The translations under genes and the position numbers were made by a program. From NCBI GenBank assembly GCA_963662155.1, contig OY759261.1, positions 1,817,227 through 1,881,226 of the forward strand: a stretch of DNA of 64,000 bases, given 5' to 3'. A model generated the notes under the pieces. The model saw only the letters and a list, made by a program, of their open reading frames with translations, had not been told where the DNA came from and ran no database searches. This DNA comes from Lamellibrachia columna. Taxonomy: Eukaryota; Annelida; Polychaeta; Sabellida; Siboglinidae. Positions 509-30,939 of this stretch are shown piece by piece; the stretch's first letter is position 1; each line of letters starts with the position of its first letter.

Positions 509-598
509 CATGTCCTCCTAATTGTGACGTTTGCTCCAGTCCTACAACTTGCACAGTTTGCACATATGGATACAAGTTGGAAAATAACTTTTGTAACG
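509..598 (+). CDS. Exon A1: 30-residue furin-like Cys-rich repeat, type A
   Basis: This is the first complete exon in the window. The frame starts with CA, which completes a GCA Ala codon split by the upstream intron, and ends with a lone G before GTAAGT. Numbering the split Ala as residue 1, type A reads ACPxNCxVCSSPTTC and then TVCTYGYKLENNxCN, with cysteines at 2, 6, 9, 15, 18 and 29. The spacing C-x3-C-x2-C-x5-C-x2-C-x2-GY-x6-C is that of furin-like or growth-factor-receptor Cys-rich repeats, which are disulphide-bonded extracellular modules. A1 has Pro4, Asp7 and Phe28. Reading through the donor gives a stop after two codons. The frame of the other ORF over this stretch lacks conserved cysteines. 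Confidence 0.88.
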
Positions 599-1112
599 GT
601 AAGTAATATAAATTTATGTTGAATTGGTAGTAGTAAATGTAAAGACGTATTTGCAGAGTTAGAAGTGTTAGAAATTGTAGTTGTGGTAGATGTTGTAGCA
701 GTTGTGCATTAGGTAGTTACAGAAGTAGTAACATTATAAGAAGTTGTAGTTTCAGTATTACTAGTAGTTGTAATAGTAAAAGTAACAAGAAGTAGTTGTA
801 GTAGTAGTAGTTGTAGTAGACGTAGAAGTAGTAATTGTAGAATTTGTATTAAAATATTAATATTATAAATGATAGTAATAGTAATAATAGTAGTACTATT
901 AATACTAGTAGTAGTAGTAGCCACGGTAGTATTTTTAATAATAGTATTAGTATTATTCGAATTATAAACAGTTGTAATCCAGGTGGTTGTAGTAATAGAT
1001 CCATTTGTAATCGTAGTTGTAGTAGTAGTAGAAGTAATAATAATAATAATAATAATAGTAGTAGTTTTAGTAATATTATTAGTATAAGTATTACTTGATG
1101 TTGTCTTTGTAG

Positions 1113-1208
1113 AAGAACAAGTTTGAGATTTATTCAGATAGCCGTAGTCTCACCAAAATCAATATTAATGCAAGTGCTGTTACAACTAACCAAAATTACA
1201 GTGGAATA
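1113..1208 (+). other. Conserved 96-bp intronic block, A-to-B intron copy
   Basis: It follows TTGATGTTGTCTTTGTAG, which resembles a 3' splice site. It aligns without gaps to the block at 2685-2780 although the surrounding trinucleotide runs differ in length. It recurs in every A-to-B intron. Entered in phase 1 it gives a stop within five codons, so it is not a normal coding exon; a poison exon or an RNA-level element is possible. Confidence 0.45.
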
Positions 1209-1474
1209 TTTTTTTATGTTTTACTACAAGAAGAAAATGGTAGTATTATTAATAGTAGTTGAAGTGGTATTTTTATTAACAGTACCATTAATATTTGTAA
1301 GGATAGTAGAAATATTTGTATATTAATGGAAAAATTTGAAGCAGTAGAAGAAGGTAAAATTGATGTAGAATTTCAGGCATTGTTTCTACTACAACTACAA
1401 AATTGCAATGTCTATGCAAACAAGTGATGGATCTTTCACAGGGAATAATCATTTGTGATATTGGTTTGTTTTAG

Positions 1475-1564
1475 CATGTCCTGATAACTGTGAAATCTGC
1501 ACCAGTCCTACAACGTGCACAATTTGCAAGAGTGGATACGTGTTGGAAAATGACGTTTGTTACG
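1475..1564 (+). CDS. Exon B1: Cys-rich repeat, type B
   Basis: The acceptor is TTTGTTTTAG and the donor GTAAGT. Type B reads ACPDNCEICTSPTTC and then TICKSGYVLENDVCY, with the same six cysteines as type A but a distinct Lys19-Ser20 in place of Thr-Tyr and Asp27. B1 matches this consensus. The exon is 90 nt, phase 1-1. Confidence 0.88.
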
Positions 1565-2151
1565 GTAAGTATTAGATTTTTTGTGGTATTTGTAGTAGAT
1601 AATTTAGAAAACCTATTCACAGAGTCAGTAACAGCAGTTATTGCATTTGAGGTAGATGTTGAAGCAGTTGTACTTGATATAGTTGCAGGTGTTGTTGTTG
1701 TTGTAGTAGTAGAAGTAGTAATAAAATTAATAGTTGTAGTAGCAGCAGCAATAATAGTAGTAATAGTAGTAGTAAAATATTAGTACTATTATTAAGAGAA
1801 AACGTAGTTGTAGTAATATTAGCAGTAGTAGAAAAAGTAGTTGCAATAGTAGTAGTAGTTGCCTTTGTTGTCTAGGTTGTAATAATAATTAGTAGTAGAA
1901 ATATAAGCAAAAGTAGTTGTATTGGTAGTGGTATTGAATGTTGTAGTGGTAATGGAATTGGAATTAAAAGTAGTATTAATGATTGTAGCTGTATTTGTGT
2001 TCTTAGTAGTAGAAGTTGTAGAAGTAGGTATATTTGACGTAGAATTGAAGGCATTGTTTCTTCTACAACAACAAAAACTTTACTATGTATATGCAAACAA
2101 GAAACGGATATGTTACGGGGAATAATCAGTTTTGATATTTGTTTGTTTTAG

Positions 2152-2241
2152 CATGTCCTGTTAACTGTGACGTGTGCACCAGTCCTACAACGTGCACAAC
2201 TTGTTTGTATGGATACATGTTGGAAAATAACCTTTGTTACG
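2152..2241 (+). CDS. Exon C1: Cys-rich repeat, type C
   Basis: Type C reads ACPVNCDVCTSPTTC and then TTCLYGYMLENNLCY. It is the most uniform class: ten of the twelve C exons look identical by eye at the nucleotide level. The donor is GTAAGTAG, so a retained intron ends translation at once. Confidence 0.88.
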
Positions 2242-2684
2242 GTAAGTAGTGGAATTTATTGTGGTATTGGTAGTAGTTAATTTTGTAAACCTATTCGTCG
2301 AGTTAGTTATAATAGCATTTGCTTTTGAAGTAGATGTTGTACTTGATGTAGTTGAAGTTGCTGTAGTAGTATTAATAGTAATAGTAGTATTAGTATAATT
2401 ATTATTAGTATTATTATTGGCATTAGTAGTAGAAGAAGTAATAGTAGTAGCAGCAGTAGTAGTATTAGTATAAGTATTAGTAGTTGTATTACTGACATTA
2501 GTTGTAGCAGTAGTAGTAGTAGTAGTAGTATAAACAGTAATAGTAATAGTAGTAGTAAAAATATTAATAAAATGGGTTGTAGTATTAATAGTTGCACTAT
2601 AATATTTATAGTAGTAGTAGAACTTAGTAGTAGCAGTTGTAGTAGTAATAATAGAAGTATTAGTACTTGATGTTGTGTATGTAG

Positions 2685-2780
2685 AAGGACATGTCGGAGA
2701 TTAATTCCGGTAGCAGAAGTCTCACCAAAATCTATATTAATACAAGCGCTGGTACAACTAACCATAATTGCCGTTGAATG
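2685..2780 (+). other. Conserved 96-bp intronic block, C-to-A intron copy
   Basis: This is the counterpart of the block in A-to-B introns, with the shared core AGTCTCACCAAAATC. It is present in most C-to-A introns and absent from B-to-C introns. Entered in phase 1 it also reaches a stop (TAA) after six codons. Confidence 0.45.
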
Positions 2781-2863
2781 TTTTTCAATATTTTACCACA
2801 ATGGTAAAATGGTAATGGAAATGTTAGGTGGGAATATTGAAATGTGATAAATGTTTGTTTTAG

Positions 2864-2953
2864 CATGTCCTGTTAACTGTGAAGTGTGCTCCAGTCCTAC
2901 AACTTGCACAGTTTGCACATATGGATACAAGTTGGAAAATAACGTTTGTAACG
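2864..2953 (+). CDS. Exon A2: Cys-rich repeat, type A
   Basis: Val4, Glu7, Val28: this is the alpha subtype of A. The upstream intron has the variant CCACAATGGTAAAATGG, shared only with the intron before A9, which suggests those two units are close relatives. Confidence 0.87.
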
Positions 2954-3388
2954 GTAAGTAATAGAAATTTATTTTGTATTGGTAGTAGTAAATGTAAAGA
3001 CCTATTGGCAGAGTTAGAAGTGTTAGAAATTGTAGTTGTGGTAGATGTTGTAGCAGTTGTGCATTAGGTAGTTACAGAAGTAGTAACATTATAAGATGTT
3101 GTAGTTTCAGTATTACTAGTAGTTGTAATAGTAAAAGTAACAAGAAGTAGTTGTAGTAGTAGTAGTTGTAGTAGACGTAGAAGTAGTAATTGTAGAATTT
3201 GTATTAAAATATTAATATTATAAATGATAGTAATAGTAATAGTAGTAGTAATATTAATACTAGTAGTAGTAGTAGCCACGGTAGTATTTTTAATAATAGT
3301 ATTAGTATTATTCGAATTATAGACAGTTGTAATTCAGGTGGTTGTAGTAATACATCCAGTTGTAATCGTAGTTGTAGTAGTAGTAGAA

Positions 3389-3424
<36 letters not shown>

Positions 3425-3841
3425 GTAGTAGTTTTTGTAATATTATTAGTGTAAGTATTACTTGATGTTGTCTTTGTAGAAGAACAAGTTTGAGATTTAT
3501 ACAGATAGCAGTAGTCTCACCAAAATCAATATTAATGCAAGTGCTGGTACAACTAACCAAAATTACAGTAGAATATTTTTTTATGTTTTACTACAAGAAG
3601 AAAATTGTAGTATTATTAATAGTAGTTGAAGTGGTATTTTTATTAACAGTACCATTAATATTTGTAAGGATAGTAGAAATATTTGTATATTAATGGAAAA
3701 ATTTGAAGCAGTAGAAGAAGATAAAATTGATGTAGAATTTCAGGCATTGTTTCTACTACAACTACAAAATTGCAATGTCTATGCAAACAAGTGATGGATC
3801 TTTCACAGGGAATAATCATTTGTGATATTGGTTTGTTTTAG

Positions 3842-3931
3842 CATGTCCTGATAACTGTGAAATCTGCACCAGTCCTACAACGTGCACAATTTGCAAGAGT
3901 GGATACGTGTTGGAAAATGACGTTTGTTACG
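3842..3931 (+). CDS. Exon B2: Cys-rich repeat, type B
   Basis: Same protein as B1. It follows an alpha-type A exon yet carries the B form that normally goes with beta-type A exons, so a recombination point probably lies in the A2-B2 intron. Confidence 0.87.
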
Positions 3932-4515
3932 GTAAGTAGTAGATTTTTTGTGGTATTTGCAGTAGATAATTTAGAAAACCTATTCACAGAGTCAGTAACA
4001 GCAGTTATTGCATTTGAGGTAGATGTTGAAGCAGTTGTACTTGATATAGTTGCAGGTGTTGTTGTTGTAGTAGTAGAAGTAGTAATAAAATTAATAGTTG
4101 TAGTAGCAGCAGCAATAATAGTAGTAATAGTAGTAGTAAAATATTAGTACTATTATTAAGAGAAAACGTAGTTGTAGTAATATTAGCAGTAGTAGAAAAA
4201 GTAGTTGCAATAGTAGTAGTAGTTGCCTTTGTTGTCTAGGTTGTAATTATAATTAGTAGTAGAAATATCAGCAAAAGTAGTTGTATTGGTAGTGGTATTG
4301 AATGTTGTAGTGGTAATGGAATTGGAATTAAAAGTAGTATTAATGATTGTAGCTGTATTTGTGTTCTTAGTAGTAGAAGTTGTAGAAGTAGGTATATTTG
4401 ACGTAGAATTGAAGGCATTGTTTCTTCTACAACAACAAAAACTTTACTATGTATATGCAAACAAGAAACGGATATGTTACGGGGAATAATCAGTTTTGAT
4501 ATTTGTTTGTTTTAG

Positions 4516-4605
4516 CATGTCCTGTTAACTGTGACGTGTGCACCAGTCCTACAACGTGCACAACTTGTTTGTATGGATACATGTTGGAAAATAACCTTTG
4601 TTACG
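4516..4605 (+). CDS. Exon C2: Cys-rich repeat, type C
   Basis: Identical to the type C consensus, with Tyr30 and the split Gly/Ala codon base at the end. Good TTTTAG acceptor and GTAAGT donor. Confidence 0.87.
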
Positions 4606-5226
4606 GTAAGTAGTGGAATTTGTTGTGGTATTGGTAGTAGTTAATTTTGTAAACCTATTCGTCGAGTTAGTTATAATAGCATTTGCTTTTGAAGTAGATG
4701 TTGTACTTGATGTAGTTGAAGTTGCTGTAGTAGTATTAATAGTAATAGTAGTATTAGTATAATTATTATTAGTATTATTATTGGCATTAGTAGTAGAAGA
4801 AGTAATAGTAGTAGCAGCAGTAGTAGTATTAGTATAAGTATTAGTAGTTGTATTACTGACATTAGTTGTAGCAGTAGTAGTAGTAGTAGTAGTATAAACA
4901 GTAATAGTAATAGTAGTAGTAAAAATATTAATAAAATGGGTTGTAGCATTAATAGTTGCACTATAATATTTATAGTAGTAGTAGAACTTAGTAGTAGTAG
5001 TTGTAGTAGTAATAATATAAGTATTAGTACTTGATGTTGTGTATGTAGAAGGACATGTCGGAGATTAATTGCGGTAGCAGAAGTCTCACCAAAATCTATA
5101 TTAATACAAGCGCTGGTACAACTAACCATAATTGCCGTTGAATGTTTTTCAATATTTTACCACAAGAATATATAGTAATGGAAATGTTAGGTGGGAATAT
5201 TGAAATGTGATAAATGTTTGTTTTAG

Positions 5227-5316
5227 CATGTCCTGTTAACTGTGAAGTGTGCTCCAGTCCTACAACTTGCACAGTTTGCACATATGGATACAAGTTGGAA
5301 AATAACGTTTGTAACG
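5227..5316 (+). CDS. Exon A3: Cys-rich repeat, type A
   Basis: Alpha subtype (Val4, Glu7, Val28). The upstream intron has CCACAAGAATATATAG, shared with the introns before A4 and A10. Confidence 0.87.
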
Positions 5317-6192
5317 GTAAGTAATAGAAATTTATTTTGTATTGGTAGTAGTAAATGTAAAGACGTATTTGCAGAGTTAGAAGTGTTAGAAATTGTAGTT
5401 GTGGTAGATGTTGTAGCAGTTGTGCAATAGGTAGTTACAGAAGTAGTAACATTATAAGATGTTGTAGTTTCAGTATTACTAGTAGTTGTAATAGTAAAAG
5501 TAACAAGAAGTAGTTGTAGTAGTAGTAGTTGTAGTAGACGTAGAAGTAGTAATTGTAGAATTTGTATTTAAATATTAATATTATAAATGATAGTAATAGT
5601 AATAGTAGTAGTAATATTAATACTAGTAGTAGTAGTAGCCACGGTAGTATTTTTAATAATAGTATTAGTATTATTCGAATTATAGACAGTTGTAATTCAG
5701 GTGGTTGTAGTAATAGATCCAGTTGTAATCGTAGTTGTAGTAGTAGTAGAAGTAATAATAATAATAATAATAGTAGTAGTTTTAGTAATATTATTAGTAT
5801 AAGTATTACTTGATGTTGTCTTTGTAGAAGAACAAGTTTGAGATTCATACAGATAGCAGTAGTCTCACCAAAATCAATATTAATGCAAGTGCTGGTACAA
5901 CTAACCAAAATTACAGTGGAATATTTTTTTATGTTTTACTACAAGAAGAAAATGGTAGTATTATTAATAGTAGTTGAAGTGGTATTTTTATTAACAGTAC
6001 CATTAATATTTGTAAGGATAGAAGACATATTTGTTTATTAATGGAAGAATTTGAAGCAGTAGAAGAAGGTAAAATTGATGTAGAATTTCAGGCATTGTTT
6101 CTACTACAACAACTACAAAATTGCAATGTCTATGTAAAAAAGTGATGGATCTTTCACCGGGAATAATCATTTGTGATATTGGTTTGTTTTAG

Positions 6193-6282
6193 CATGTCCT
6201 GATTACTGTGAAATATGCACCAGTCCTACAACGTGCACAATTTGCAAGAGTGGATTCGTGTTGGAAAATGACGTTTGTTACG
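6193..6282 (+). CDS. Exon B3: Cys-rich repeat, type B
   Basis: Tyr5 replaces Asn5 and Phe22 replaces Tyr22; both changes recur together in B4 and B9, defining a B subtype. Confidence 0.87.
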
Positions 6283-6869
6283 GTAAGTAGAAGATTTTTT
6301 GTGGTATTGGTAGTAGATAATTTAGAAAACCTATTCACAGAGTCAGTAACAGCAGTTATTGCATTTGAGGTAGATGTTGAAGCAGTTGTACTTGATATAG
6401 TTGCAGGTGTTGTTGTTGTAGTAGTAGTAGAAGTAGTAATAAAATTAATAGTTGTAGTAGCAGCAGCAATAATAGTAGTAATAGTAGTAGTCAAATATTA
6501 GTACTATTATTAAGAGAAAACGTAGTTGTAGTAATATTAGCAGTAGTAGAAAAAGTAGTTGCAATAGTAGTAGTAGTTGCCGTTGTTGTCTAGGTTGTAA
6601 TAATAATTAGTAGTAGAAATATAAGCAACAGTAGTTGTATTGGTAGTGGTATTGAATGTTGTAGTGGTAATGGAATTGGAATTAAAAGTAGTATTAATGA
6701 TTGTAGCTGTATTTGTGTTCTTAGTAGTAGAAGTTGTAGAAGTAGGTATATTTGACGTAGAATTGAAGGCATTGTTTCTTCTACAACAACAAAAACTTTA
6801 CTATGTATATGCAAACAAGAAACGGATATGTTACGGGGAATAATCAGTTTTGATATTTGTTTGTTTTAG

Positions 6870-6959
6870 CATGTCCTGTTAACTGTGACGTGTGCACCAG
6901 TCCTACAACGTGCACAACTTGTTTGTATGGATACATGTTGGAAAATAACCTTTGTTACG
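6870..6959 (+). CDS. Exon C3: Cys-rich repeat, type C
   Basis: Type C consensus. The whole unit from A3 to A4 is almost a copy of the next unit (A4 to A5 start), pointing to a recent tandem duplication. Confidence 0.87.
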
Positions 6960-7580
6960 GTAAGTAGTGGAATTTGTTGTGGTATTGGTAGTAGTTAATT
7001 TTGTAAACCTATTCGTCGAGTTAGTTATAATAGCATTTGCTTTTGAAGTAGATGTTGTACTTGATGTAGTTGAAGTTGCTGTAGTAGTATTAATAGTAAT
7101 AGTAGTATTAGTATAATTATTATTAGTATTATTATTGGCATTAGTAGTAGAAGAAGTAATAGTAGTAGCAGCAGTAGTAGTATTAGTATAAGTATTAGTA
7201 GTTGTATTACTGACATTAGTTGTAGCAGTAGTAGTAGTAGTAGTAGTATAAACAGTAATAGTAATAGTAGTAGTAAAAATATTAATAAAATGGGTTGTAG
7301 CATTAATAGTTGCACTATAATATTTATAGTAGTAGTAGAACTTAGTAGTAGTAGTTGTAGTAGTAATAATATAAGTATTAGTACTTGATGTTGTGTATGT
7401 AGAAGGACATGTCGGAGATTAATTGCGGTAGCAGAAGTCTCACCAAAATCTATATTAATACAAGCGCTGGTACAACTAACCATAATTGCCGTTGAATGTT
7501 TTTCAATATTTTACCACAAGAATATATAGTAATGGAAATGTTAGGTGGGAATATTGAAATGTGATAAATGTTTGTTTTAG

Positions 7581-7670
7581 CATGTCCTGTTAACTGTGAA
7601 GTGTGCTCCAGTCCTACAACTTGCACAGTTTGCACATATGGATACAAGTTGGAAAATAACGTTTGTAACG
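7581..7670 (+). CDS. Exon A4: Cys-rich repeat, type A
   Basis: Alpha subtype, same as A3 by eye, including the flanking intron sequence. Confidence 0.87.
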
Positions 7671-8546
7671 GTAAGTAATAGAAATTTATTTTGTATTGGT
7701 AGTAGTAAATGTAAAGACGTATTTGCAGAGTTAGAAGTGTTAGAAATTGTAGTTGTGGTAGATGTTGTAGCAGTTGTGCAATAGGTAGTTACAGAAGTAG
7801 TAACATTATAAGATGTTGTAGTTTCAGTATTACTAGTAGTTGTAATAGTAAAAGTAACAAGAAGTAGTTGTAGTAGTAGTAGTTGTAGTAGACGTAGAAG
7901 TAGTAATTGTAGAATTTGTATTAAAATATTAATATTATAAATGATAGTAATAGTAATAGTAGTAGTAATATTAATACTAGTAGTAGTAGTAGCCACGGTA
8001 GTATTTTTAATAATAGTATTAGTATTATTCGAATTATAGACAGTTGTAATTCAGGTGGTTGTAGTAATAGATCCAGTTGTAATCGTAGTTGTAGTAGTAG
8101 TAGAAGTAATAATAATAATAATAATAGTAGTAGTTTTAGTAATATTATTAGTATAAGTATTACTTGATGTTGTCTTTGTAGAAGAACAAGTTTGAGATTC
8201 ATACAGATAGCAGTAGTCTCACCAAAATCAATATTAATGCAAGTGCTGGTACAACTAACCAAAATTACAGTGGAATATTTTTTTATGTTTTACTACAAGA
8301 AGAAAATGGTAGTATTATTAATAGTAGTTGAAGTGGTATTTTTATTAACAGTACCATTAATATTTGTAAGGATAGAAGACATATTTGTTTATTAATGGAA
8401 GAATTTGAAGCAGTAGAAGAAGGTAAAATTGATGTAGAATTTCAGGCATTGTTTCTACTACAACAACTACAAAATTGCAATGTCTATGTAAACAAGTGAT
8501 GGATCTTTCACCGGGAATAATCATTTGTGATATTGGTTTGTTTTAG

Positions 8547-8636
8547 CATGTCCTGATTACTGTGAAATATGCACCAGTCCTACAACGTGCATAATTTGCA
8601 AGAGTGGATTCGTGTTGGAAAATGACGTTTGTTACG
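8547..8636 (+). CDS. Exon B4: Cys-rich repeat, type B
   Basis: Tyr5 and Phe22 as in B3, plus Ile16 in place of Thr16 (ACA to ATA). The cysteines and both splice sites are kept. Confidence 0.87.
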
Positions 8637-9223
8637 GTAAGTAGAAGATTTTTTGTGGTATTGGTAGTAGATAATTTAGAAAACCTATTCACAGAGTCAG
8701 TAACAGCAGTTATTGCATTTGAGGTAGATGTTGAAGCAGTTGTACTTGATATAGTTGCAGGTGTTGTTGTTGTAGTAGTAGTAGAAGTAGTAATAAAATT
8801 AATAGTTGTAGTAGCAGCAGCAATAATAGTAGTAATAGTAGTAGTCAAATATTAGTACTATTATTAAGAGAAAACGTAGTTGTAGTAATATTAGCAGTAG
8901 TAGAAAAAGTAGTTGCAATAGTAGTAGTAGTTGCCGTTGTTGTCTAGGTTGTAATAATAATTAGTAGTAGAAATATAAGCAACAGTAGTTGTATTGGTAG
9001 TGGTATTGAATGTTGTAGTGGTAATGGAATTGGAATTAAAAGTAGTATTAATGATTGTAGCTGTATTTGTGTTCTTAGTAGTAGAAGTTGTAGAAGTAGG
9101 TATATTTGACGTAGAATTGAAGGCATTGTTTCTTCTACAACAACAAAAACTTTACTATGTATATGCAAACAAGAAACGGATATGTTACGGGGAATAATCA
9201 GTTTTGATATTTGTTTGTTTTAG

Positions 9224-9313
9224 CATGTCCTGTTAACTGTGACGTGTGCACCAGTCCTACAACGTGCACAACTTGTTTGTATGGATACATGTTGGAAAAT
9301 AACCTTTGTTACG
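9224..9313 (+). CDS. Exon C4: Cys-rich repeat, type C
   Basis: Type C consensus. The following intron changes to the GGTAGTATTAGTATTAG form typical of beta units, so the alpha-to-beta switch falls here. Confidence 0.87.
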
Positions 9314-9937
9314 GTAAGTAGTGGAATTTGTTGTGGTATTGGTAGTAGTTAATTTTGTAAACCTATTCGTCGAGTTAGTTATAATAGCATTTGCTTTTGA
9401 AGTAGATGTTGTACTTGATGTAGTTGAAGTTGCTGTAGTAGTATTAATAGTAATGGTAGTATTAGTATTAGTATAATTATTATTAGTATTATTATTGGCA
9501 TTAGTAGTGGCAGTAATAGTAGTAGCAGCAGTTGTAGTATTAGTAAAAGTATTAGTAGTAGTATTACTGACATTAGTTGTAGCAGTAGTAGTAGTAGTAG
9601 TAGTATAAACAGTAATAGTAATAGTAGTAGTAAAAATATTAATAAAATGGGTTGTAATATTAATAGTTGCACTAGAATGTTTATAGTAGTAGTAGAACTT
9701 AGTAGTAGTAGTTGTAGTAGTAATAATAGAAGTATTAATACTTGATGTTGTCTATGTAGAAGGACATGTCGGAGATTAATTCCGGTAACAGAAGTCTCAC
9801 CAAAATCTATATTAATACAAGCGCTGGTACAACTAACCATAATTGCCGTTGAATGTTTTTCAATATTTTACCACATGAATATATAGTAATGGAAATGTTA
9901 GGTGGGAATATTGAAATGTGATAAATGTTTGTTTTAG

Positions 9938-10027
9938 CATGTCCTGCTAACTGTGACGTGTGCTCTAGTCCTACAACTTGCACAGTTTGCACATATGGAT
10001 ACAAGTTGGAAAATAACTTTTGTAACG
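9938..10027 (+). CDS. Exon A5: Cys-rich repeat, type A
   Basis: Beta subtype with Ala4, Asp7 and Phe28. Ser10 is encoded by TCT rather than TCC, a silent change. Confidence 0.87.
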
Positions 10028-10906
10028 GTAAGTAATATAAATTTATGTTGAATTGGTAGTAGTAAATGTAAAGACGTATTTGCAGAGTTAGAAGTGTTAG
10101 AAATTGTAGTTGTGGTAGATGTTGTAGCAGTTGTGCATTAGGTAGTTACAGAAGTAGTAACATTATAAGAAGTTGTAGTTTCAGTATTACTAGTAGTTGT
10201 AATAGTAAAAGTAACAAGAAGTAGTTGTAGTAGTAGTAGTTGTAGTAGACGTAGAAGTAGTAATTGTAGAATTTGTATTAAAATATTAATATTATAAATG
10301 ATAGTAATAGTAATAATAGTAGTACTATTAATACTAGTAGTAGTAGTAGCCACGGTAGTATTTTTAATAATAGTATTAGTATTATTCGAATTATAGACAG
10401 TTGTAATTCAGGTGGTTGTAGTAATAGATCCAGTTGTAATCGTAGTTGTAGTAGTAGTAGAAGTAATAATAATAATAATAATAATAATAGTAGTAGTTTT
10501 AATAATATTATTAGTATAAGTATTACTTGATGTTGTCTTTGTAGAAGAACAAGTTTGAGATTTATACAGATAGCAGTAGTCTCACCAAAATCAATATTAA
10601 TGCAAGTGCTGGTACAACTAACCAAAATTACAGTGGAATATTTTTTTATGTTTTACTACAAGAAGAAAATGGTAGTATTATTAATAGTAGTTGAAGTGGT
10701 ATTTTTATTAACAGTACCATTAATATTTGTAAGGATAGTAGAAATATTTGTATATTAATGGAAAAATTTGAAGCAGTAGAAGAAGGTAAAATTGATGTAG
10801 AATTTCAGGCATTGTTTCTACTACAACTACAAAATTGCAATGTCTATGCAAACAAGTGATGGATCTTTCACAGGGAATAATCATTTGTGATATTGGTTTG
10901 TTTTAG

Positions 10907-10996
10907 CATGTCCTGATAACTGTGAAATCTGCACCAGTCCTACAACGTGCACAATTTGCAAGAGTGGATACGTGTTGGAAAATGACGTTTGTTACG
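10907..10996 (+). CDS. Exon B5: Cys-rich repeat, type B
   Basis: Type B consensus. The downstream intron starts with a variant TTTTGTTTTGTATTTG stretch. Confidence 0.87.

Positions 10997-17527: not shown

Positions 17528-17598
<71 letters not shown>
17528..17598. repeat. Expanded (AAT)n run in the A8-B8 intron
   Basis: Other units have roughly 6-10 AAT units at the same place; here there are over 20. It accounts for the long 2,405-bp period of this unit. Confidence 0.85.
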
Positions 17599-20462: not shown

Positions 20463-21048
20463 GTAAGTAGTAGATTTGTTGTGGTATTGGTAGTAGATAA
20501 TTTAGAAAACCTATTCACAGAGTCAGTAACAGCAGTTATTGCATTTGAGGTAGATGTTGAAGCAGTTGTACTTGATATAGTTGCAGGTGTTGTTGTTGTA
20601 GTAGTAGTAGAAGTAGTAATAAAATTAATAGTTGTAGTAGCAGCAGCAATAATAGTAGTAATAGTAGTAGTCAAATATTAGTACTATTATTAAGAGAAAA
20701 CGTAGTTGTAGTAATATTAGCAGTAGTAGAAAAAGTAGTTGCAATAGTAGTAGTAGTTGCCTTTGTTGTCTAGGTTGTAATAATAATTAGTAGTAGAAAT
20801 ATAAGCAAAAGTAGTTGTATTGGTAGTGGTATTGAATGTTGTAGTGGTAATGGAATTGGAATTAAAAGTAGTATTAATGATTGTAGCTGTATTTGTGTTC
20901 TTAGTAGTAGAAGTTGTAGAAGTAGGTATATTTGACGTAGAATTGAAGGCATTGTTTCTTCTACAACAACAAAAATTTACTATGTATATGCAAACAAGAA
21001 ACGGATATGTTACGGGGAATAATCAGTTTTGATATTTTTTTGTTTTAG

Positions 21049-21138
21049 CATGTCCTGTTAACTGTGACGTGTGCACCAGTCCTACAACGTGCACAACTTG
21101 TTTGTATGGATACATGTTGGAAAATAACCTTTGTTACG
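21049..21138 (+). CDS. Exon C9: Cys-rich repeat, type C
   Basis: Type C consensus. The polypyrimidine tract is slightly altered to GATATTTTTTTGTTTTAG. Confidence 0.87.
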
Positions 21139-21765
21139 GTAAGTAGTGGAATTTGTTGTGGTATTGGTAGTAGTTAATTTTGTAAACCTATTCTTCGAGT
21201 TAGTTATAATAGCATTTGCTTTTGAAGTAGATGTTGTACTTGATGTAGTTGAAGTTGCTGTAGTAGTATTAATAGTAATAGTAGTATTAGTATAATTATT
21301 ATTAGTATTATTATTGGCATTAGTAGTAGAAGAAGTAATAGTAGTAGCAGCAGTAGTAGTATTAGTATAAGTATTAGTAGTTGTATTACTGACATTAGTT
21401 GTAGCAGTAGTAGTAGTAGTAGTTGTAGTAGTATAAACAGTAATAATAATGGTAGTAGTAAAAATATTAATAAAATGGGTTGTAGTATTAATAGTTGCAC
21501 TATAATATTTATAGTAGTAGTAGAACTTAGTAGTAGTAGTTGTAGTAGTAATAATAGAAGTATTAGTACTTGATGTTGTGTATGTAGAAGGACATGTCGG
21601 AGATTAATTCCGGTAGCAGAAGTCTCACCAAAATCTATATTAATACAAGCGCTGGTACAACTAACCATAATTGCCGTTGAATGTTTTTCAATATTTTACC
21701 ACAAGAATATATAGTAATGGAAATGTTAGGTGGGAATATTGAAATGTGATAAATGTTTGTTTTAG

Positions 21766-21855
21766 CATGTCCTGTTAACTGTGAAGTGTGCTCCAGTCCT
21801 ACAACTTGCACAGTTTGCACATATGGATACAAGTTGGAAAATAACGTTTGTAACG
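21766..21855 (+). CDS. Exon A10: Cys-rich repeat, type A
   Basis: Alpha subtype. The preceding intron has a small extra GTTGTAGTA segment near 21,420. Confidence 0.87.
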
Positions 21856-22743
21856 GTAAGTAATAGAAATTTATGTTGTATTGGTAGTAGTAAATGTAAA
21901 GACCTATTGGCAGAGTTAGAAGTGTTAGAAATTGTAGTTGTGGTAGATGTTGTAGCAGTTGTGCATTAGGTAGTTACAGAAGTAGTAACATTATAAGATG
22001 TTGTAGTTTCAGTATTACTAGTAGTTGTAATAGTAAAAGTAACAAGAAGTAGTTGTAGTAGTAGTAGTTGTAGTAGACGTAGAAGTAGTAATTGTAGAAT
22101 TTGTATTAAAATATTAATATTATAAATGATAGTAATAGTAATAGTAGTAGTAATATTAATACTAGTAGTAGTAGTAGCCACGGTAGTATTTTTAATAATA
22201 GTATTAGTATTATTCGAATTATAGACAGTTGTAATTCAGGTGGTTGTAGTAATAGATCCAGTTGTAATCGTAGTTGTAGTAGTAGTAGAAGTAATTATAA
22301 TAATAATAATAATAATAATAATAGTAGTAGTTTTAGTAATATTATTAGTATAAGTATTACTTGATGTTGTCTTTATAGAAGAACAAGTTTGAGATTTATA
22401 CAGATAGCAGTAGTCTCACCAAAATCAATATTAATGCAAGTGCTGGTACAACTAACCAAAATTACCGTGGAATATTTTTTTATGTTTTACTACAAGAAGA
22501 AAATGGTAGTATTATTAATAGTAGTTGAAGTGGTATTTTTATTAACAGTACCATTAATATTTGTAAGGATAGTAGACATATTTGTTTATTAATGGAAGAA
22601 TTTGAAGCAGTAGAAGAAGGTAAAATTGATGTAGAATTTCAGGCATTGTTTCTACTACAACAACTACAAAATTGCAATGTCTATGCAAACAAGTGATGGA
22701 TCTTTCACCGGGAATAATTATTTGTGATATTGGTTTGTTTTAG

Positions 22744-22833
22744 CATGTCCTGATAACTGTGAAATGTGCACGAGTCCTACAACGTGCACAATTTGCAAGA
22801 GTGGATACGTGTTGGAAAATGACGTTTGTTACG
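22744..22833 (+). CDS. Exon B10: Cys-rich repeat, type B
   Basis: Met8 replaces Ile8, the form shared by all B exons from here to the right end of the array. Confidence 0.87.
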
Positions 22834-23426
22834 GTAAGTAGTAGATTTTTTGTGGTATTGGTAGTAGATAATTTAGAAAACCTATTCACAGAGTCAGTAA
22901 CAGCAGTTATTGCATTTGAGGTAGATGTTGAAGCAGTTGTACTTGATATAGTTGCAGGTGTTGTTGTTGTTGTAGTAGTAGAAGTAGTAAAACAATTAAT
23001 AGTTGTAGTAGCAGCAGCAATAATAGTAGTAATATAAGTAGTAAAATATTAGTACTATTATTAAGAGAAAACGTAGTTATATTAATATTAGCAGTAGTAG
23101 AAAAAGTAGTTGCAATAGTAGTAGTAGTTGCCGTTGTTGTCTAGGTTGTAATAATAATTAGTAGTAGAAATATAATGAAGAGTAGTTGTATTGGTAGTGG
23201 TATTGAATGTTGTAGTGGTAATGGAATTGGAATTAAAAGTAGTATTAATGATTGTAGCTGTATTTGTGTTCTTAATAGTAGAAGTTGTAACAGTAGAACT
23301 AGGAATATTTGACGTAGAATTGTAGGCATTGTTTCTTCTGCAACAACAAAAACTTTACTATGTATATGCATACAAGTAACGGATATGTTACGGGGAATAA
23401 TAAGTTTTGATATTTGTTTGTTTTAG

Positions 23427-23516
23427 CATGTCCTGTTAACTGTGACGTGTGCACCAGTCCTACAACGTGCACAACTTGTTTGTATGGATACATGTTGGAA
23501 AATAACCTTTGTTTCG
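23427..23516 (+). CDS. Exon C10: Cys-rich repeat, type C
   Basis: Phe30 (TTC) replaces Tyr30. The unit flanks are more diverged than in the units to the left. Confidence 0.87.
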
Positions 23517-24137
23517 GTAAGTAGTGGAATTTGTTGTGGTATTGGTAGTAGTTAATTTTGTAAACCTATTCGTCGAGTTAGTTATAATAGCATTTGCTTT
23601 TGAAGTAGATGTTGTACTTGATGTAGTTGAAGTTGCTGTAGTAGTATTAATAGTAATGGTAGTATTAGTATTAGTATAATTATTATTAGTATTATTATTG
23701 GCACTAGTAGAGGCAGTAATAGTAGTAGCAGCAGTAGTAGTATTAGTAAAAGTATTAGTAGTAGTATTACTGACATTAGTTGTAGCAGTAGTAGTAGTAG
23801 TAGTATAAACAGTAATAGTAATAGTAGTAGTAAAAATATTAATAAAATGGGTTGTAGTATTAATAGTTGCACTAGAATGTTTATAGTAGTAGTAGAACTT
23901 AGTAGTAGTAGTTGTAGTAGTAATAATAGAAGTATTAGTACTTGATGTTGTCTATGTAGAAGGACATGTCGGAGATTAATTCCGGTAGCAGAAGTCTCAC
24001 CAAAATCTATATTAATACAAGCGCTGGTACAACTAACCATAATTGCCGTTGAATGTTTTTCAATATTTTACCACATGAATATATAGTAATGGAAATGTTA
24101 GGTGGGAATATTGAAATGTGATAAATGTTTGTTTTAG

Positions 24138-24227
24138 CATGTCCTCCTAACTGTGACGTGTGCTCCAGTCCTACAACTTGCACAGTTTGCACATATGGAT
24201 ACAAGTTGGAAAATAACTTTTGTAACG
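24138..24227 (+). CDS. Exon A11: Cys-rich repeat, type A
   Basis: Beta subtype with Pro4, Asp7, Phe28; an isolated beta copy among diverged units. Confidence 0.87.
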
Positions 24228-25104
24228 GTAAGTAATATAAATTTATGTTGAATTGGTAGTAGTAAATGTAAAGACGTATTTGCAGAGTTAGAAGTGTTAG
24301 AAATTGTAGTTGTGGTAGATGTTGTAGCAGTTGTGCATTAGGTAGTTACAGAAGTAGTAACATTATAAGAAGTTGTAGTTTCAGTATTACTAGTAGTTGT
24401 AATAGTAAAAGTAACAAGAAGTAGTTGTAGTAGTAGTAGTTGTAGTAGACGTAGAAGTAGTAATTGTAGAATTTGTATTAAAATATTAATATTATAAATG
24501 ATAGTAATAGTAATAGTAGTAGTAATATTAATACTAGTAGTAGTAGTAGCCACGGTAGTATTTTTAATAATAGTATTAGTATTATTCGAATTATAGACAG
24601 TTGTAATTCAGGTGGTTGTAGTAATAGATCCAGTTGTAATCATAGTTGTAGTAGTAGTAGTAGAAGTAATAATAATAATAATAGTAGTAGTTTTAGTAAT
24701 ATTATTAGTATAAGTATTACTTGATGTTGTCTTTTTTAGAAAAACAAGTTTGAGATTCATACATATAGCAGTAGTCTCACCAAAATCAATATTAATGCAA
24801 GTGCTGGTACAACTAACCAAAATTACAGTGGAATATTTTTTTATGTTTTACTACAAGAAGAAAATGGTAGTATTATTAATAGTAGTTGAAGTGGTATTTT
24901 TATTAACAGTACCATTAATATTTGTAAGGAGAGTAGACATATTTGTTTATTAATGGAATAATTTGAAGCAGTAGAAGAAGGTAAAATTGATGTAGAATTT
25001 CAGGCATTGTTTCTACTACAACAACTACAAAATTGCAATGTCTATGCAAACAAGTGATGGATCTTTCACCGGGAATAATCATTTGTGATATTGGTTTGTT
25101 TTAG

Positions 25105-25194
25105 CATGTCCTGATAACTGTGAAATGTGCACCAGTCCTACAACGTGCACAATTTGCAAGAGTGGATACGTGTTGGAAAATGACGTTTGTTACG
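25105..25194 (+). CDS. Exon B11: Cys-rich repeat, type B
   Basis: Met8 form, otherwise type B consensus. Confidence 0.87.
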
Positions 25195-25787
25195 GTAAGT
25201 AGTAGAATTTTTGTGGTATTGGTAGTAGATAATTTAGAAAACCTATTCACAGAGTCAGTAACAGCAGTTATTGCATTTGAGGTAGATGTTGAAGCAGTTG
25301 TACTGGATATAGTTGCAGGTGTTGTTGTTGTTGTAGTAGTAGAAGTAGTAATAAAATTAATAGTTGCAGTAGCAGCAGCAATAATAGTAGTAATAGTAGT
25401 AGTAAAATATTAGTACTATTATTAAGAGAAAACGTAGTTGTAATAATATTAGTAGTAGTAGAAAAAGTAGTTGCAATAGTAGTAGTAGTTGCCGTTGTTG
25501 TCTAGGTTGTAATAATAATTAGTAGTAGAAATATAAGCAACAGTAGTTGTATTGGTAGTGGTATTGAATGTTGTAATGGTAATGGAATTGGAATTAGAAG
25601 TAGTATTAATGATTGTAGCTGTATTTGTGTTCTTAGTAGTAGAAGTTGTAGCAGTAGAAGTAGGTATATTTGACGTAGAATTGAAGGCATTGTTTCTTCT
25701 ACAACAACAAAAACTTTACTATGTATTTGCAAACAAGAAACGGATATGTTACAGGGAATAATCAGTTTTGATATTTGTTTGTTTTAG

Positions 25788-25877
25788 CATGTCCTGTTAA
25801 CTGTGACGTGTGCACCAGTCCTACAACGTGCACAACTTGTTTGTATGGATACATGTTGGAAAATAACCTTTGTTACG
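25788..25877 (+). CDS. Exon C11: Cys-rich repeat, type C
   Basis: The protein is type C consensus, but the downstream intron begins like an A intron (GTAAGTAATATAAATTTAT) and is only 536 bp, so the donor side looks like a recombinant. Confidence 0.87.
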
Positions 25878-26413
25878 GTAAGTAATATAAATTTATATTG
25901 TATTGGTAGTAGTTGCTGTAGTAGTATTAATAGTAATAGTAGTATTATTATTGGTATAATTAGTATTAGTATTATTATTGGTATTAGTAGTAGCAGTAAT
26001 AGTAGTAGTAGCAGTAGTAGTATTAGTATAAGTATTAGTAGTAGTATTACTGACATTAGTTGTAGCAGTAGTTGTAGTAGTATAAACAGTAATAGTAATA
26101 GTAGTAGTAAAAATATTAATAAAATGGGTAGTAGTATTAATAGTTGCACTAGAATGTTTATAGTAGTAGTAGAATTTAATAGTAGTAGTTGTAGTAGTAA
26201 TAATATAAATATTACTACTTGATGTTGTCTATGTAGAAGGACATGTCGGAGATTAATTCCGGTAGCAGAAGTCTCACCAAAATCGATATTAATACAAGCG
26301 CTGGTACACCTAACCATAATTGCCGTTGAATGTTTTCAATATGTTACCACAAGAATATAAAGTAATGGAAATGTTAGGTGGGAATATTGAAATGTGATAA
26401 ATGTTTGTTTTAG

Positions 26414-26503
26414 CATGTCCTGTTAACTGTGACGTGTGCTCCAGTCCTACAACTTGCACAGTTTGCACATATGGATACAAGTTGGAAAATAACGTTTGTA
26501 ACG
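26414..26503 (+). CDS. Exon A12: Cys-rich repeat, type A
   Basis: Val4, Asp7, Val28: intermediate between alpha and beta and possibly ancestral-like. Confidence 0.87.
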
Positions 26504-27402
26504 GTAAGTAATATAAATTTATATTGTATTGGTAGTAGTAAATGTAAAGACGTATTGGCAGATTTAGAAGTGTTAGAAATTGTAGTTGTGGTAGATGTTG
26601 TAGCAGTTGTGCATTAGGTAGTTACAGAAGTAGTAACATTATAAGAAGTAATAGTTTCAGTATTACTAGTAGTTGTAGTAGTAAAAGTAACAAGAAGTAG
26701 TTGTAGTAGAAGTAGTAGTAGTAGTAGTAGACGTAGAAGTAGTAATTATAGAATTAGTAGTAAAAATATTAATATTAGAAATAATAGTAATAGTAATAGT
26801 AGTAGTAATACTATTACTAGTAGTAGTAGTAGCCGCGGTAGTATTTTTGTTAATAATAGTATTAGTAGTATTCGAATCATTGACAGTTGTAGAACAGGTG
26901 GTTGTAGTAATATATCCAGTAGTAATCGTAGTTGTAGTAGTAGTAGAAGTAATACTAATGATAATAATACTAATAATAATAGTTGTAGTTTTACTAATAT
27001 TATTTGTATGAGTATTTCTTGATGTTGTCTTTTTAGAAGAACAAGTTTGAGATTTATACAGATAGCAGAAGTCTCACTAAAATCAATATTAATACAAGCG
27101 CTGGTACAACTAACCAAAATTGCAGTGGACTATTTTTTTATGTTTTAGTACAAGAAGAAAATGGTAGTATTATTAATAGTAGTTGTAGTGGTATTTTTTT
27201 TTAACAGTACCATTAATATTTGAAAGGATAGTAGAAATATTTGTTTATTAATGGAAGAATTTGAAGCAGTGGAAGAAGGTAAAATTGATGTAGAATTTCA
27301 GGCATTGTTTCTTCTGCAACAACTACAACATTGCAATGTCTATGCAAACAAGTGATGGATCTTTTACCGGGAATAATCATTTGTGATATTGGTTTGTTTT
27401 AG

Positions 27403-27492
27403 CATGTCCTGATAACTGTGAAATGTGCACAAGTCCTACAACGTGCATAATTTGCAAGAGTGGATACGTGTTGGAAAATGACGTTTGTTACG
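27403..27492 (+). CDS. Exon B12: Cys-rich repeat, type B
   Basis: Met8 and Ile16; donor GTAAGA instead of GTAAGT. It is followed directly by another B exon, without C and A exons between. Confidence 0.86.
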
Positions 27493-27774
27493 GTAAGAAG
27501 TAGATTTTTTTGTGGTATTGGTAGTAGATAATTTTGAAAACCTATTCACAGAGTCAGTAATAGCAGTTATTGCATTTGAGGTAGAGGGTGAAGCAGTTGT
27601 ACTTAATGTAGTTGCAGGTGGTGTTGTTGTTGTAGTAGTAGAAGTAGTATTATCATTAGTAGTTGTAGTAGCAGCAGCAGTAATAGTAGTAATACTAGTA
27701 GTAAACATATTAGTACTATTATTAAGAGAAAACGTAGTTGTAGTAATATTAGCAGTAGAAGAAAAAGTATTTGC

Positions 27775-27809
<35 letters not shown>

Positions 27810-28478
27810 ACGTAGAAGTAGTAATTGTAGAATTAGTAGTAAAAATATTAATATTAGAAATAATTGTAATAGTAATAGTAGTAGTAATACTATTTCTAGT
27901 AGTAGTAGTAGACGCGGTAGAATTTTTTAATAATAGTATTAGTAGTATTCGAATTATTGACAGTTGTAGAACAGGTGGTTGTATTAATATATCCAGTAGT
28001 AATCGTAGTTGTAGTAGTAGTAGAAGTAATACTAATAATAATAATACTAATAATAATAGTTGTAGTTTTAGTAATATTATTTGTATGAGTATTTCTTGAT
28101 GTTGTCTTTTTAGAAGAACATGTTTGAGGTTTATACAGATAGCAGAAGTCTCACCAAAATCAATATTAATACAAGCGCTGGTACAACTAACCAAAATTGC
28201 AGTGGACTATTTTTTTATGTTTTACTACAAGAAGAAAATGGTAGTATTATTAGTAGTAGTTGTAGTTGTATTTTTATTAACAGTACCATTAATATTTGAA
28301 AGGATAGTAGAAATATTTGTTTATTAATGGAAGAATTTGAAGCAGTATAAGAAGGTAAAATTGATGTAGAATTTCAGACATTGTTTCTTCTACAACAACT
28401 ACAACATTGCAATGTCTATGCAAACAAGTGATGGATCTTTTACCGGGAATAATCATTTGTGATCTTGGTTTGTTTTAG

Positions 28479-28568
28479 CATGTCCTGATAACTGTGAAAT
28501 GTGCACCAGTCCTACAACGTGCACAATTTGCAAGAGTGGATACGTGTTGGAAAATGACGTTTGTTACG
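28479..28568 (+). CDS. Exon B13: Cys-rich repeat, type B
   Basis: Met8 form with donor GTAAGA. The 986-bp intron before it starts as a B intron and changes to an A intron in a GTA run at about 27,776-27,812. Confidence 0.86.
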
Positions 28569-29162
28569 GTAAGAAGTAGATTTTTTTGTGGTATTGGTAG
28601 TAGATAATTTAGAAAACCTATTCACAGAGTCAGTAACAGCAGTTATTGCATTTGAGCTAGATGTTGAAGCAGTTGTACTTGATATAGTTGCAGGTGTTGT
28701 TGTTGGTGTAGTAGTAGAAGTAGTAATACAATTAATAGTTGTAGTAGCAGCAGCAATAATAGTAGTAATAGTAGTAGTAAAATATTAGTACTATTATTAA
28801 GAGAAAACGTAGTTGTAGTAATATTAGCAGTAGTAGAAAAAGTAGTTGCAATAGTAGTAGTAGTTGCCGTTGTTGACTAGGTTGTAATAGTAAACAGTAG
28901 TAGAAATATAAGCAACAGTAGTTGTATTGGTAGTGGTATTGAATGTTGTAGTGGTAATGGCATTTGAATTAAAAGTAGTATTAATGATTGTAGCTGTATT
29001 TGTGTTCTTAGTAGTAGAAGTTGTAGCAGTAGAAGTAGGTATATTTGACGTAGAATTGAAGGCATTGTTTCTTCTACAACAACAAAAACATTACTATATA
29101 TATGCAAACAAGAAACGGATATGTTACGGGGAATAATAATTTTTTATATTTGTTTGTTTTAG

Positions 29163-29252
29163 CATGTCCTGTTAACTGTGACGTGTGCACCAGTTCTACA
29201 ACGTGTACAACTTGTTTGTATGGATACATGTTGGAAAATAACCTTTGTTGCG
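29163..29252 (+). CDS. Exon C12: Cys-rich repeat, type C, with an extra cysteine
   Basis: Ser12 replaces Pro12, and TGC replaces TAC at residue 30, giving adjacent Cys29-Cys30 and an odd number of cysteines (seven). This is the only exon in the array with a changed cysteine count. Confidence 0.84.
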
Positions 29253-29876
29253 GTAAGTAGTGGAATTTGTTGTGGTATTGGTAGTAGTTAATTTTGAAAA
29301 CCTATTCGCCGAGTTAGTTATAATAGCAATTGCTTTTGAAGTAGATGTTGTACTTGATGTAGTTGAAGTTGATTTTATAGTATTAATAGTAATAGTAGTA
29401 TTAATATTGGTATAATTATTATTAGTATTATTATTGGCATTAATAGTAGCAGTAATAGTAGTAGTAGCAGTAGTAGTATTAGTATAAGTATTAGTAGTAG
29501 TATTACTGACATTAGTTGTAGCAGTAGTAGTAGTAGTAGTAGTATAAAGAGTAATAGTAATAGTTGTAGTAAAAATATGAATAAAATGGGTAGTAGTAAT
29601 AATAGTTGCACTAGAATGTTTATAGTAGTAGTAGAACTTAGTAGTAGTAGTTGTAGTAGTAATAATAGAAGTATTAGTACTTGATGTTGTCTATGTAGAT
29701 GGACATGTCGGAGATTAATTCCGGTAGCAGAAGTCTCACCAAAATCTATATTAATACAAGCGCTGGTACAACTAACCATAATTGCCGTTGAATGTTTTTC
29801 AATATGTTACCACAAGAATATAAAGTAATGGATATGTTAGGTGGGAATATTGAAATGTGATAAATGTTTGTTTTAG

Positions 29877-29966
29877 CATGTCCTGTTAACTGTGACGTGT
29901 GCTCCAGTCCTACAACTTGCACAGTTTGCACATATGGATACAAGTTGGAAAAAAACGTTTGTAACG
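29877..29966 (+). CDS. Exon A13: Cys-rich repeat, type A
   Basis: Val4, Asp7, Lys26 (AAA for AAT) and Val28. It is the last complete exon of the array. Confidence 0.86.
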
Positions 29967-30862
29967 GTAAGTAATATAAATTTATGTTGTATTGGTAGTA
30001 GTAAATGTAAAGACCTATTGGCAGAGTTAGAAGTGTTAGAAATTGTAGTTGTGGTAGATGTTGTAGCAGTTGTGCATTAGGTAGTTACAGATGTTGTAAC
30101 ATTAGTAGAAGTAGTAGTTTCTGTATTACTAGTAGTTGTAGTAGTAAAATTAGCAAGAAGTAGTTGTAGTAGAAGTAGTAGTAGTAGTAGTAGTAGACGT
30201 AGAAGTAGTAATTGTAGAATTAGTAGTAAAAATATTAATATTTGAAATAATAGTAATAGTAATAGTAGTAGTAATACTATTTATAGTAGTAGTAGTAGTA
30301 GCCGCGGTAGTATTTTGTAATATTAGTAGTAGCAGTAGTCGATTTATTGGCAGTTGTATTTCAGGTAATTGTACTAATAGATCCATTATTAGTAGAAGTA
30401 GTAATAGTAGAAGTAATAAAAATAATAATACTAATAGTAGTAGTAGTAGTTTAAGTAATATTATTAATATAAGTAGTACTTGATGTTGTCTTTGTAGAAG
30501 AACATGTTTGAGGTTCATTCAGATAGCAGTAGTCTCACCAAAATCAACATTAATACAAGCCCTGGTACAACTAACCAAAATTGCAGTGAAATGTTTTTTT
30601 ATGTTTTACTACAAGAAGAACATGGTTGTATTAGTAATAGTAGTTGTAGTGGCATTGTTATTAACAGTACCATTAATATTTGAAAGGATATTAGAAGTAG
30701 TTTATTATTAATGGATTAATTTGAAGCAGTAGAAGAAGGTAAAATTGATGTAGAATTCCAGGCATTGTTTCTACTACAACAACTACAAAATTGCAATGTC
30801 TATGCAAACAATCAATGTACCTTTTACCGGGAATATTCATTTGTGATATTGGTTGGTTTTAG

Positions 30863-30927
30863 CATGTCCTGTTAACTGTGAAATGTGCACAAGTTCTACA
30901 ACGTGCACAATTTGCAAGAGTGGATAC

Positions 30928-30939
<12 letters not shown>
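30863..30939 (+). CDS. Exon B14: truncated Cys-rich repeat ending in a stop
   Basis: It starts as a type B exon (Val4, Glu7, Met8, Ser12) after a TTTTAG acceptor and stays homologous through GGATACGT (to 30,929). The sequence then changes to an unrelated block, giving GYVIK and TAA at 30,937-30,939. The sixth cysteine and the donor are lost. AATAAA overlaps the stop at 30,935-30,940. It could be a broken exon that is skipped, or a terminal exon with its own poly(A) signal. Both are inference. Confidence 0.6.

Follow-up and report, generated by a model that had tools for sequence, protein, structure and literature searches.

The KIV-2 repeat of LPA is built from near-identical units with two exons in each, the array exons of Dscam are diverged from one another, and the furin-like family of Cys-rich repeats, for which R-spondin and PCSK5 serve as comparators here, is characterized by a six-Cys spacing with CxxC pairs. 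LPA KIV-2 is presented as the model case of a whole-exon coding tandem repeat (PMC11462820, PMC11201333), and the exons of the Dscam arrays are described as mutually exclusive (PMC1397879). Here we analyze a stretch of 64,000 nucleotides from chromosome 1 (C1) of the tubeworm Lamellibrachia columna, positions 1,817,227-1,881,226 (hereafter the window), which carries part of a tandem array of 90-bp exons. We assign a probability of roughly 80% to the reading that this is a coding array within a single gene, with an apparent signal peptide, a NIDO head, a Cys-rich stalk and a length that depends on copy number.

Scanning for TTTTAG, a segment of the form CA...G of 88-98 nt, and GTAAG identifies 38 plus-strand exons between window positions 509 and 29966, each exactly 90 bp long. 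All 38 are of phase 1-1, read through without a stop once the carried base is added, and have six cysteines in the same spacing; spliced together, they yield 1,140 amino acids with zero stops. A first-pass annotation made from the sequence alone had proposed 38 intact exons of 90 bp and phase 1-1, with six cysteines each and 1,140 residues in all. A looser pattern (TTTTAG, an open phase-1 frame of 60-150 nt with at least six Cys, and GTAAG) was applied to window positions 1-30939 and gives 38 matches on the plus strand; the minus strand, the reversed sequence and 100 first-order Markov simulations each give 0. The intact share of the copies in the window is 38 of 39: the 39th (30864-30939) retains its acceptor, has lost its donor and runs into an in-frame stop, so that the first-pass count of at least 39 exons holds for 38 of them. 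The introns between the array exons abound in GTA/AGT-type trinucleotide repeats, and since each exon offers only 30 codons, gene finders seeking long open frames would miss the array. The exons belong to three types, A, B and C; those in the window, located by the pattern scan, are as follows (window coordinates).

509..29966, plus strand, visible part of the tandem array, 38 intact 90-bp exons (the array extends 83 kb leftward)
509..598, plus strand, array exon type A (type from the A-B-C order)
1475..1564, plus strand, array exon type B
2152..2241, plus strand, array exon type C
2864..2953, plus strand, array exon type A
3842..3931, plus strand, array exon type B
4516..4605, plus strand, array exon type C
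5227..5316, plus strand, array exon type A
6193..6282, plus strand, array exon type B
6870..6959, plus strand, array exon type C
7581..7670, plus strand, array exon type A
8547..8636, plus strand, array exon type B
9224..9313, plus strand, array exon type C
9938..10027, plus strand, array exon type A
10907..10996, plus strand, array exon type B
11583..11672, plus strand, array exon type C
12294..12383, plus strand, array exon type A
13260..13349, plus strand, array exon type B
13937..14026, plus strand, array exon type C
14648..14737, plus strand, array exon type A
15614..15703, plus strand, array exon type B
16291..16380, plus strand, array exon type C
17002..17091, plus strand, array exon type A
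18019..18108, plus strand, array exon type B
18695..18784, plus strand, array exon type C
19407..19496, plus strand, array exon type A
20373..20462, plus strand, array exon type B
21049..21138, plus strand, array exon type C
21766..21855, plus strand, array exon type A
22744..22833, plus strand, array exon type B
23427..23516, plus strand, array exon type C
24138..24227, plus strand, array exon type A
25105..25194, plus strand, array exon type B
25788..25877, plus strand, array exon type C
26414..26503, plus strand, array exon type A
27403..27492, plus strand, array exon type B, first of a B-B pair (by type order)
28479..28568, plus strand, array exon type B, second of the B-B pair (by type order)
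29163..29252, plus strand, array exon type C, one extra Cys at its end
29877..29966, plus strand, array exon type A, last intact copy
30864..30939, plus strand, truncated array exon, donor lost, in-frame stop (its 3' sequence recurs at about 33950)

The genome searched comprises 879,693,805 bases in 30 contigs, with 72,698,866 bases in C1; the L. columna genome is described as 879.73 Mb in 15 chromosomes, with a chromosome 1 of 72.70 Mb (PMC13080331). Around the array we read C1:1677001-1931200 minus its N stretches (7,500 of 254,200 bases), which may conceal further exons. In the main array, 137 intact exons follow one another along 113,036 bp (C1:1734157-1847192), 38 of them within the window; its start lies 83 kb leftward of the window, past whose edge it had indeed been predicted to continue. 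The 254-kb stretch holds 141 intact plus-strand exons in all, the other 4 being located in a diverged duplicate of the 3' end of the array about 56 kb further on; C1:1905636-1907903, which is about 88% identical to window 29446-31818, is a copy of this 3' end, the stop-bearing truncated exon included. The Cys spacing is 3-2-5-2-10 in 140 of the 141 intact copies, and the remaining one carries an extra Cys at its end. Inside the array, the block C1:1793661-1797754 is inverted and carries six exons, 4 of them intact and 2 partial, on the minus strand. When tblastn was run with no splice-site or length filter, it found 143 plus-strand copies of at least 30 bits (141 intact, 2 truncated) and 6 minus-strand copies (4 intact, 2 partial). 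Since only 2 truncated plus-strand copies are added, the filter concealed no other broken copy of at least 30 bits. Genome-wide, the acceptor motif matches 145 times in the forward and 7 times in the reverse direction (control, 1 and 2). In a genome search for array copies that scored 150 of 955 candidates, the only match listed outside the array locus is a diverged paralogue at C1:2022771-2033222. The paralogous NIDO-furin unit at C1:2022769-2033222 has six visible module copies, and the loss of cysteines in two of the six shows a picture of decay.

Types A, B and C alternate in that order and number 48, 47 and 46 of the 141 exons, with 11, 11 and 6 haplotypes, respectively; the B-B pair at 27403/28479 is the sole irregularity in their order. 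One A-B-C trio spans about 2.35 kb. Of the 45 intervals from one A exon to the next in the main array, 43 served for the alignment of trios and the testing of variants; the two excluded intervals (one with the inverted block, the other with two B exons) fall outside 1.8-3.0 kb, and results on trios below refer to the 43 retained. Adjacent trios are 96.5-100% identical in aligned bases, there are 36 distinct sequences among the 43, and 17 of the 903 pairs are identical. Mean trio identity falls on the whole toward both ends of the array, with internal dips as well, a pattern that would be expected from unequal exchange in a higher-order repeat. As in repeats of the LPA KIV-2 type, the tandem units hold complete symmetric exons and are near-identical between neighbors.

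Reading the assembly leftward for the gene start, as the first-pass annotation had suggested, leads to four plus-strand exons upstream of the array (C1:1717731-1717946, 1725779-1726048, 1729626-1729760 and 1730336-1730486), which join in phases 0, 0 and 0 and exit in phase 1 into the 1-1 array. The first begins MVLLDIRLPLLALCALLPAKSLGGG, an apparent signal peptide as judged by eye, and the four exons joined cover positions 3-185 of the 186 in the Pfam NIDO model, scoring 135 bits against a cut-off of 25. A start codon with a signal peptide at C1:1725641 was dropped as a candidate when tubeworm relatives revealed a NIDO exon further upstream, at C1:1717731, whose signal peptide is better. The full join of 145 exons is open over 4,643 amino acids, as are a join of 150 exons that includes the downstream array copy and the EGF exon described below (4,801 amino acids) and a join with zero array exons (533 amino acids); hence, the array is a frame-neutral insert. 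Every exon being of phase 1-1, and the junction between the flanking exons likewise falling at phase 1, the frame survives whatever the number of modules, which bears out what had been argued from the symmetry of the exons. The three exon types, the upstream NIDO exons, the inverted block and the duplicated 3' end go beyond what the first-pass annotation contained. The L. columna genome appears to hold a large NIDO-AMOP family, with at least 152 NIDO and at least 34 AMOP matches, many of them clustered on C1, C9 and C14. The best protein relatives of the flanking domains, from 8000 candidates searched, are those of Lamellibrachia satsuma. Nidogen domains are described as expanded in Riftia (PMC8789280).

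With the introns of the same trios as the neutral yardstick for exon variants, 8 synonymous variants are observed against 8.0 expected. Non-synonymous variants number 14 against 21.7 expected at non-Cys codons and 14 against 27.2, about half, when Cys codons are included. Neither Cys-loss (0 versus 5.5 expected) nor stops (0 versus 2.4) occur; taken together, 0 versus 7.9 corresponds to a Poisson P of 0.0004, or to a P of 0.0055 when treated as a share of the 22 exon variants. Gap columns amount to 0 of 270 in the exons and 337 of 2081 in the introns, with no exon indel. TTTTAG and GTAAGT are invariant save for a gap in one aligned donor, bearing in mind that AG, GTAAG and the 90-bp length belonged to the search pattern by which the copies were picked. 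The result is little altered after dropping intron sites near gaps or in trinucleotide runs, and across all 141 exons 35 variants are found against 62.9 expected, with Cys-loss or stops at 0 against 13.1. By this measure the array is most likely coding and under purifying selection. The coding reading of the first-pass annotation is thus upheld by the NIDO head, the phase-1 donor and the open frame as well as by these deficits, and a dN/dS near one among the copies, which it had named as evidence to the contrary, is not seen within types.

Several observations nevertheless weigh against a coding array. The synonymous share of the variants in the 141 exons is by itself not significant (10 of 35, P 0.18), and pairwise diversity is not lower in the exon than in the adjoining intron for type A (0.023 versus 0.018) or type B (0.014 versus 0.014), type C being the one in which it is lower (0.005 versus 0.020). 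For the A-B, A-C and B-C pairs of type consensuses, dN is 0.235, 0.157 and 0.180 and dS is 0.154, 0.173 and 0.088, respectively, so that dN exceeds dS in two of the three pairs; this hints that the residues between the cysteines may be free or diversifying, with about 18 synonymous sites offering no real test. Furthermore, a stop-bearing truncated exon sits at the 3' end of the array, the protein searches returned no close relative of the array (the best array-type matches, many of them unnamed proteins, are 27-44% identical), and copy number comes from one HiFi assembly of one haplotype, in which misassembly is possible.

One alternative is a dead or selfish satellite, in which an exon-intron trio was amplified inside an intron and the copies are intact merely through recent expansion and homogenization. 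The higher-order repeat, the identical neighbors, the inverted block and the rearranged 3' end all resemble satellite DNA, exon pairwise diversity equals or exceeds that of the intron for types A and B, and cysteines have been lost at the paralogous locus. Against this, the array shows no Cys-loss, stop or indel in its exons where 7.9 Cys-losses and stops would be expected, and non-synonymous change is roughly halved when synonymous change proceeds at the intron rate; we regard this explanation as very unlikely, and recent homogenization alone as the cause of exon intactness is disfavored by the intron-calibrated variant test. Regulated exon choice or skipping, of the Dscam-like or cassette kind, would make the length and sequence of the product a matter of isoforms and not of genomic copy number. 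The symmetry of all intact exons, which makes skipping harmless to the frame, and the existence of three sequence types speak for it. Near-identity within each type, as seen in the low haplotype counts, means that little diversity would be gained, and the splice sites are common to all aligned trios (copies having been picked by AG and GTAAG), which leaves exon choice a rather unlikely account.

Under the preferred reading of a coding array within one gene, the observed exon array, with its phases, its higher-order structure, its NIDO head and its selective constraint, is placed in a gene that would start at C1:1717731 with the apparent signal peptide and the four-exon NIDO domain and continue through a minimum of 137 symmetric exons of 90 bp, every one of which encodes a single furin/VSP-like module of 30 residues and six cysteines. 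In the manner of a coding satellite, unequal exchange of three-exon units of about 2.35 kb would add, remove and homogenize copies, and such an exchange of trios would alter copy number with the frame intact. All modules would presumably be spliced in constitutively, and the exons of the inverted block would drop out of the transcript. The product would have a Cys-rich stalk of about 4,100 residues in a total of about 4,600, its length tracking exon number, and is most likely a secreted protein of the extracellular-matrix type. A matrix role is suggested by the nidogen expansion in Riftia (PMC8789280) together with the TSP1-containing tube proteins of the vestimentiferan Paraescarpia, whose tube matrix proteins are described as enriched in domains such as TSP1 and chitin-binding (PMC8476170).

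Protein length may differ between individuals. The bolder proposition is that of a protein-coding satellite, evolving as satellites do and forming the body of one secreted protein whose length would vary from worm to worm in blocks of 90 residues; we hold it to be about an even bet. Its satellite-like traits are the higher-order repeats, the runs of identical units, the inversion and the duplicated end. What sets the three module types apart is mainly amino-acid substitution on an unchanging cysteine scaffold, as would suit the diversification of a binding surface. If expressed, the locus would provide a natural test of the drift of protein length when repeats are self-contained symmetric exons, here at least 137 near-identical cassettes; RNA-seq of the sequenced L. 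columna specimen is stated to be public (BioProject PRJEB68010; PMC13080331).

Downstream of the array, two further exons of the window are in phase with it and may belong to the same gene.

35255..35517, plus strand, AMOP-domain exon 1, phase 1 to 0, in phase with the array, putatively of the same gene
37370..37580, plus strand, AMOP-domain exon 2, phase 0 to 1, in phase with the array, putatively of the same gene

Entered in phase 1 and joined, they match AMOP at 25.2 bits (cut-off 25; model positions 2-108 of 143), and the second half of this AMOP shows 36% identity (E 9e-14) with a high-scoring AMOP on C14 of the same genome. Exon 1 looks coding, its dN/dS against two C1 AMOP exons being about 0.34 (0.042/0.123 and 0.063/0.183). 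Further on, and also in phase, are an EGF exon (C1:1909371-1909484) and TSP1 exons at C1:1910719 and 1911554, whose order matches that in an L. satsuma protein; in the search that placed exons by tubeworm relatives, matches with long T or S runs were set aside. No GDPH-type VWD motif occurs on the plus strand from window position 37,574 to C1:1,931,200, unseen stretches excepted, and Pfam finds no further domain on the plus strand of window 37,000-56,802, where the only matches (Decapeptide, Exo_endo_phos and pRN1_helical) fall below cut-off. An AMOP/TSP1 C-terminal tail is an uncertain part of the gene, in phase and possibly a member of it; the AMOP of the window may be a fused tail or a remnant of a neighboring gene.

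Doubts about this tail come from the AMOP itself: the second exon alone scores 14.5 bits, AMOP is not reported in the joined query of 479 amino acids, and the AMOP of the window is absent among the 34 AMOP matches listed genome-wide. They are reinforced by the neighborhood, for five other C1 loci have NIDO exons near an AMOP exon and the AMOP of the window is without them; the paralogous locus, moreover, has a NIDO-AMOP gene distinct from its NIDO-furin exons and beginning beyond them, at about C1:2056493. The array could accordingly be coding in a gene that ends soon after it, with the AMOP and TSP1 exons as the left-over half of a neighboring NIDO-AMOP-TSP1 gene and the stop of the truncated exon as either a real end or a scar; the truncated exon bears its stop in both copies of the 3' end, and an AATAAA overlaps that stop in the window (by eye). 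We consider this possible, if a little doubtful, inasmuch as the AMOP exons are undamaged and keep phase with the array, exon 1 has the low dN/dS given above, the TSP1 exons follow in the order of the L. satsuma protein, and nothing in the 254 kb read matches the N-terminal parts of the tubeworm NIDO-AMOP proteins P0006 and P0003 at better than E 1.0. It affects only the tail of the gene proposed here. As a separate observation, the sequence that breaks the 39th exon (CATAAAATAAAATG..., window 30927-30990) recurs 3 kb downstream at 33950-34010, which could represent a rearrangement scar or an alternative last exon.

When the module itself is compared with Pfam, it matches VSP, a Giardia family, at 86.2 bits (cut-off 31.4), and Furin-like_2 is matched below cut-off (18.5 bits versus 28). 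The description of the repeats as furin-like therefore stands as regards the six-Cys spacing with CxxC pairs and fails as regards the furin-like profile, it being VSP that passes. We do not claim homology with VSP, the likeness being, as far as can be judged from sequence, one of motif grammar. A search of the PDB returns R-spondin-1 at E 0.01. The array-type protein matches have length ranges of about 297-945, 313-996 and 627-1995 amino acids, and array-only queries return one distant protein in one search and three in another (two of them named, both from Blepharisma). A literature search found no title or abstract opening that describes the array, supplementary files and the Ensembl annotation being outside its scope.

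Other elements were noted around the array. The window contains three minisatellites, of 49 bp x 19 copies (32799-33723), 88 bp x 14 copies (38967-40205) and 54 bp x 26 copies (55184-56591), the last with three open frames of more than 400 codons each. On the minus strand, 41622-42350 is a 242-amino-acid frame that stays open across 26-bp repeats and has a weak GDSL-lipase match (26.1 bits, below cut-off). The plus strand carries an EGF-like sequence at 44165-44262 (by eye), possibly a decayed exon, with an in-frame stop just upstream, and at 62326-62832 a Reverse-transcriptase RNase H domain (27 bits, above cut-off), the remains of a retrotransposon. Open frames on the minus strand at 63105-63803, for which Pfam gives nothing, look by motif like a B-family DNA polymerase of the protein-primed kind, as in Maverick-type elements. 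The window yielded no match to Rfam and no tRNA. In the mitochondrial contig TGA appears to be read as Trp, and AGA = Ser and ATA = Met are suggested by the residues that stand where Ser and Met would be expected. Its gene order appears to be nad3-nad2-cox1-cox2, the names other than COX1 being tentative.

Compared with the systems introduced at the outset, the array is closest in kind to LPA KIV-2, with which it shares tandem genomic units that each add in-frame disulfide-rich modules. It differs in that each exon amounts to one 30-residue module and three exon types make up a unit of 2.35 kb, in that at least 137 exons lie on one haplotype, and in that its introns consist largely of GTA-type trinucleotide repeats. 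Proteins of the NIDO-AMOP-VWD type, as described for MUC4 (PMC5354666), and the tubeworm NIDO-AMOP proteins P0003 and P0006 resemble the locus in their NIDO head and, if the putative AMOP link holds, in an in-phase downstream AMOP; unlike them, the tubeworm locus has a giant array of Cys-rich modules between the two. The furin-like or growth-factor-receptor repeats of R-spondin and PCSK5, and Giardia VSP, have a similar six-Cys module with CxxC pairs, whereas the tubeworm module has a fixed period of 30 residues, a spacing of 3-2-5-2-10 and one exon to itself. Dscam, too, has large tandem exon arrays (PMC1397879); in contrast to the diverged, alternative exons of that gene, the tubeworm copies are homogenized and probably all included. 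Taken together, the locus is of a known kind, that of whole-exon coding tandem repeats, and differs in its size, its one-module exons, its higher-order structure of trios and its host gene.

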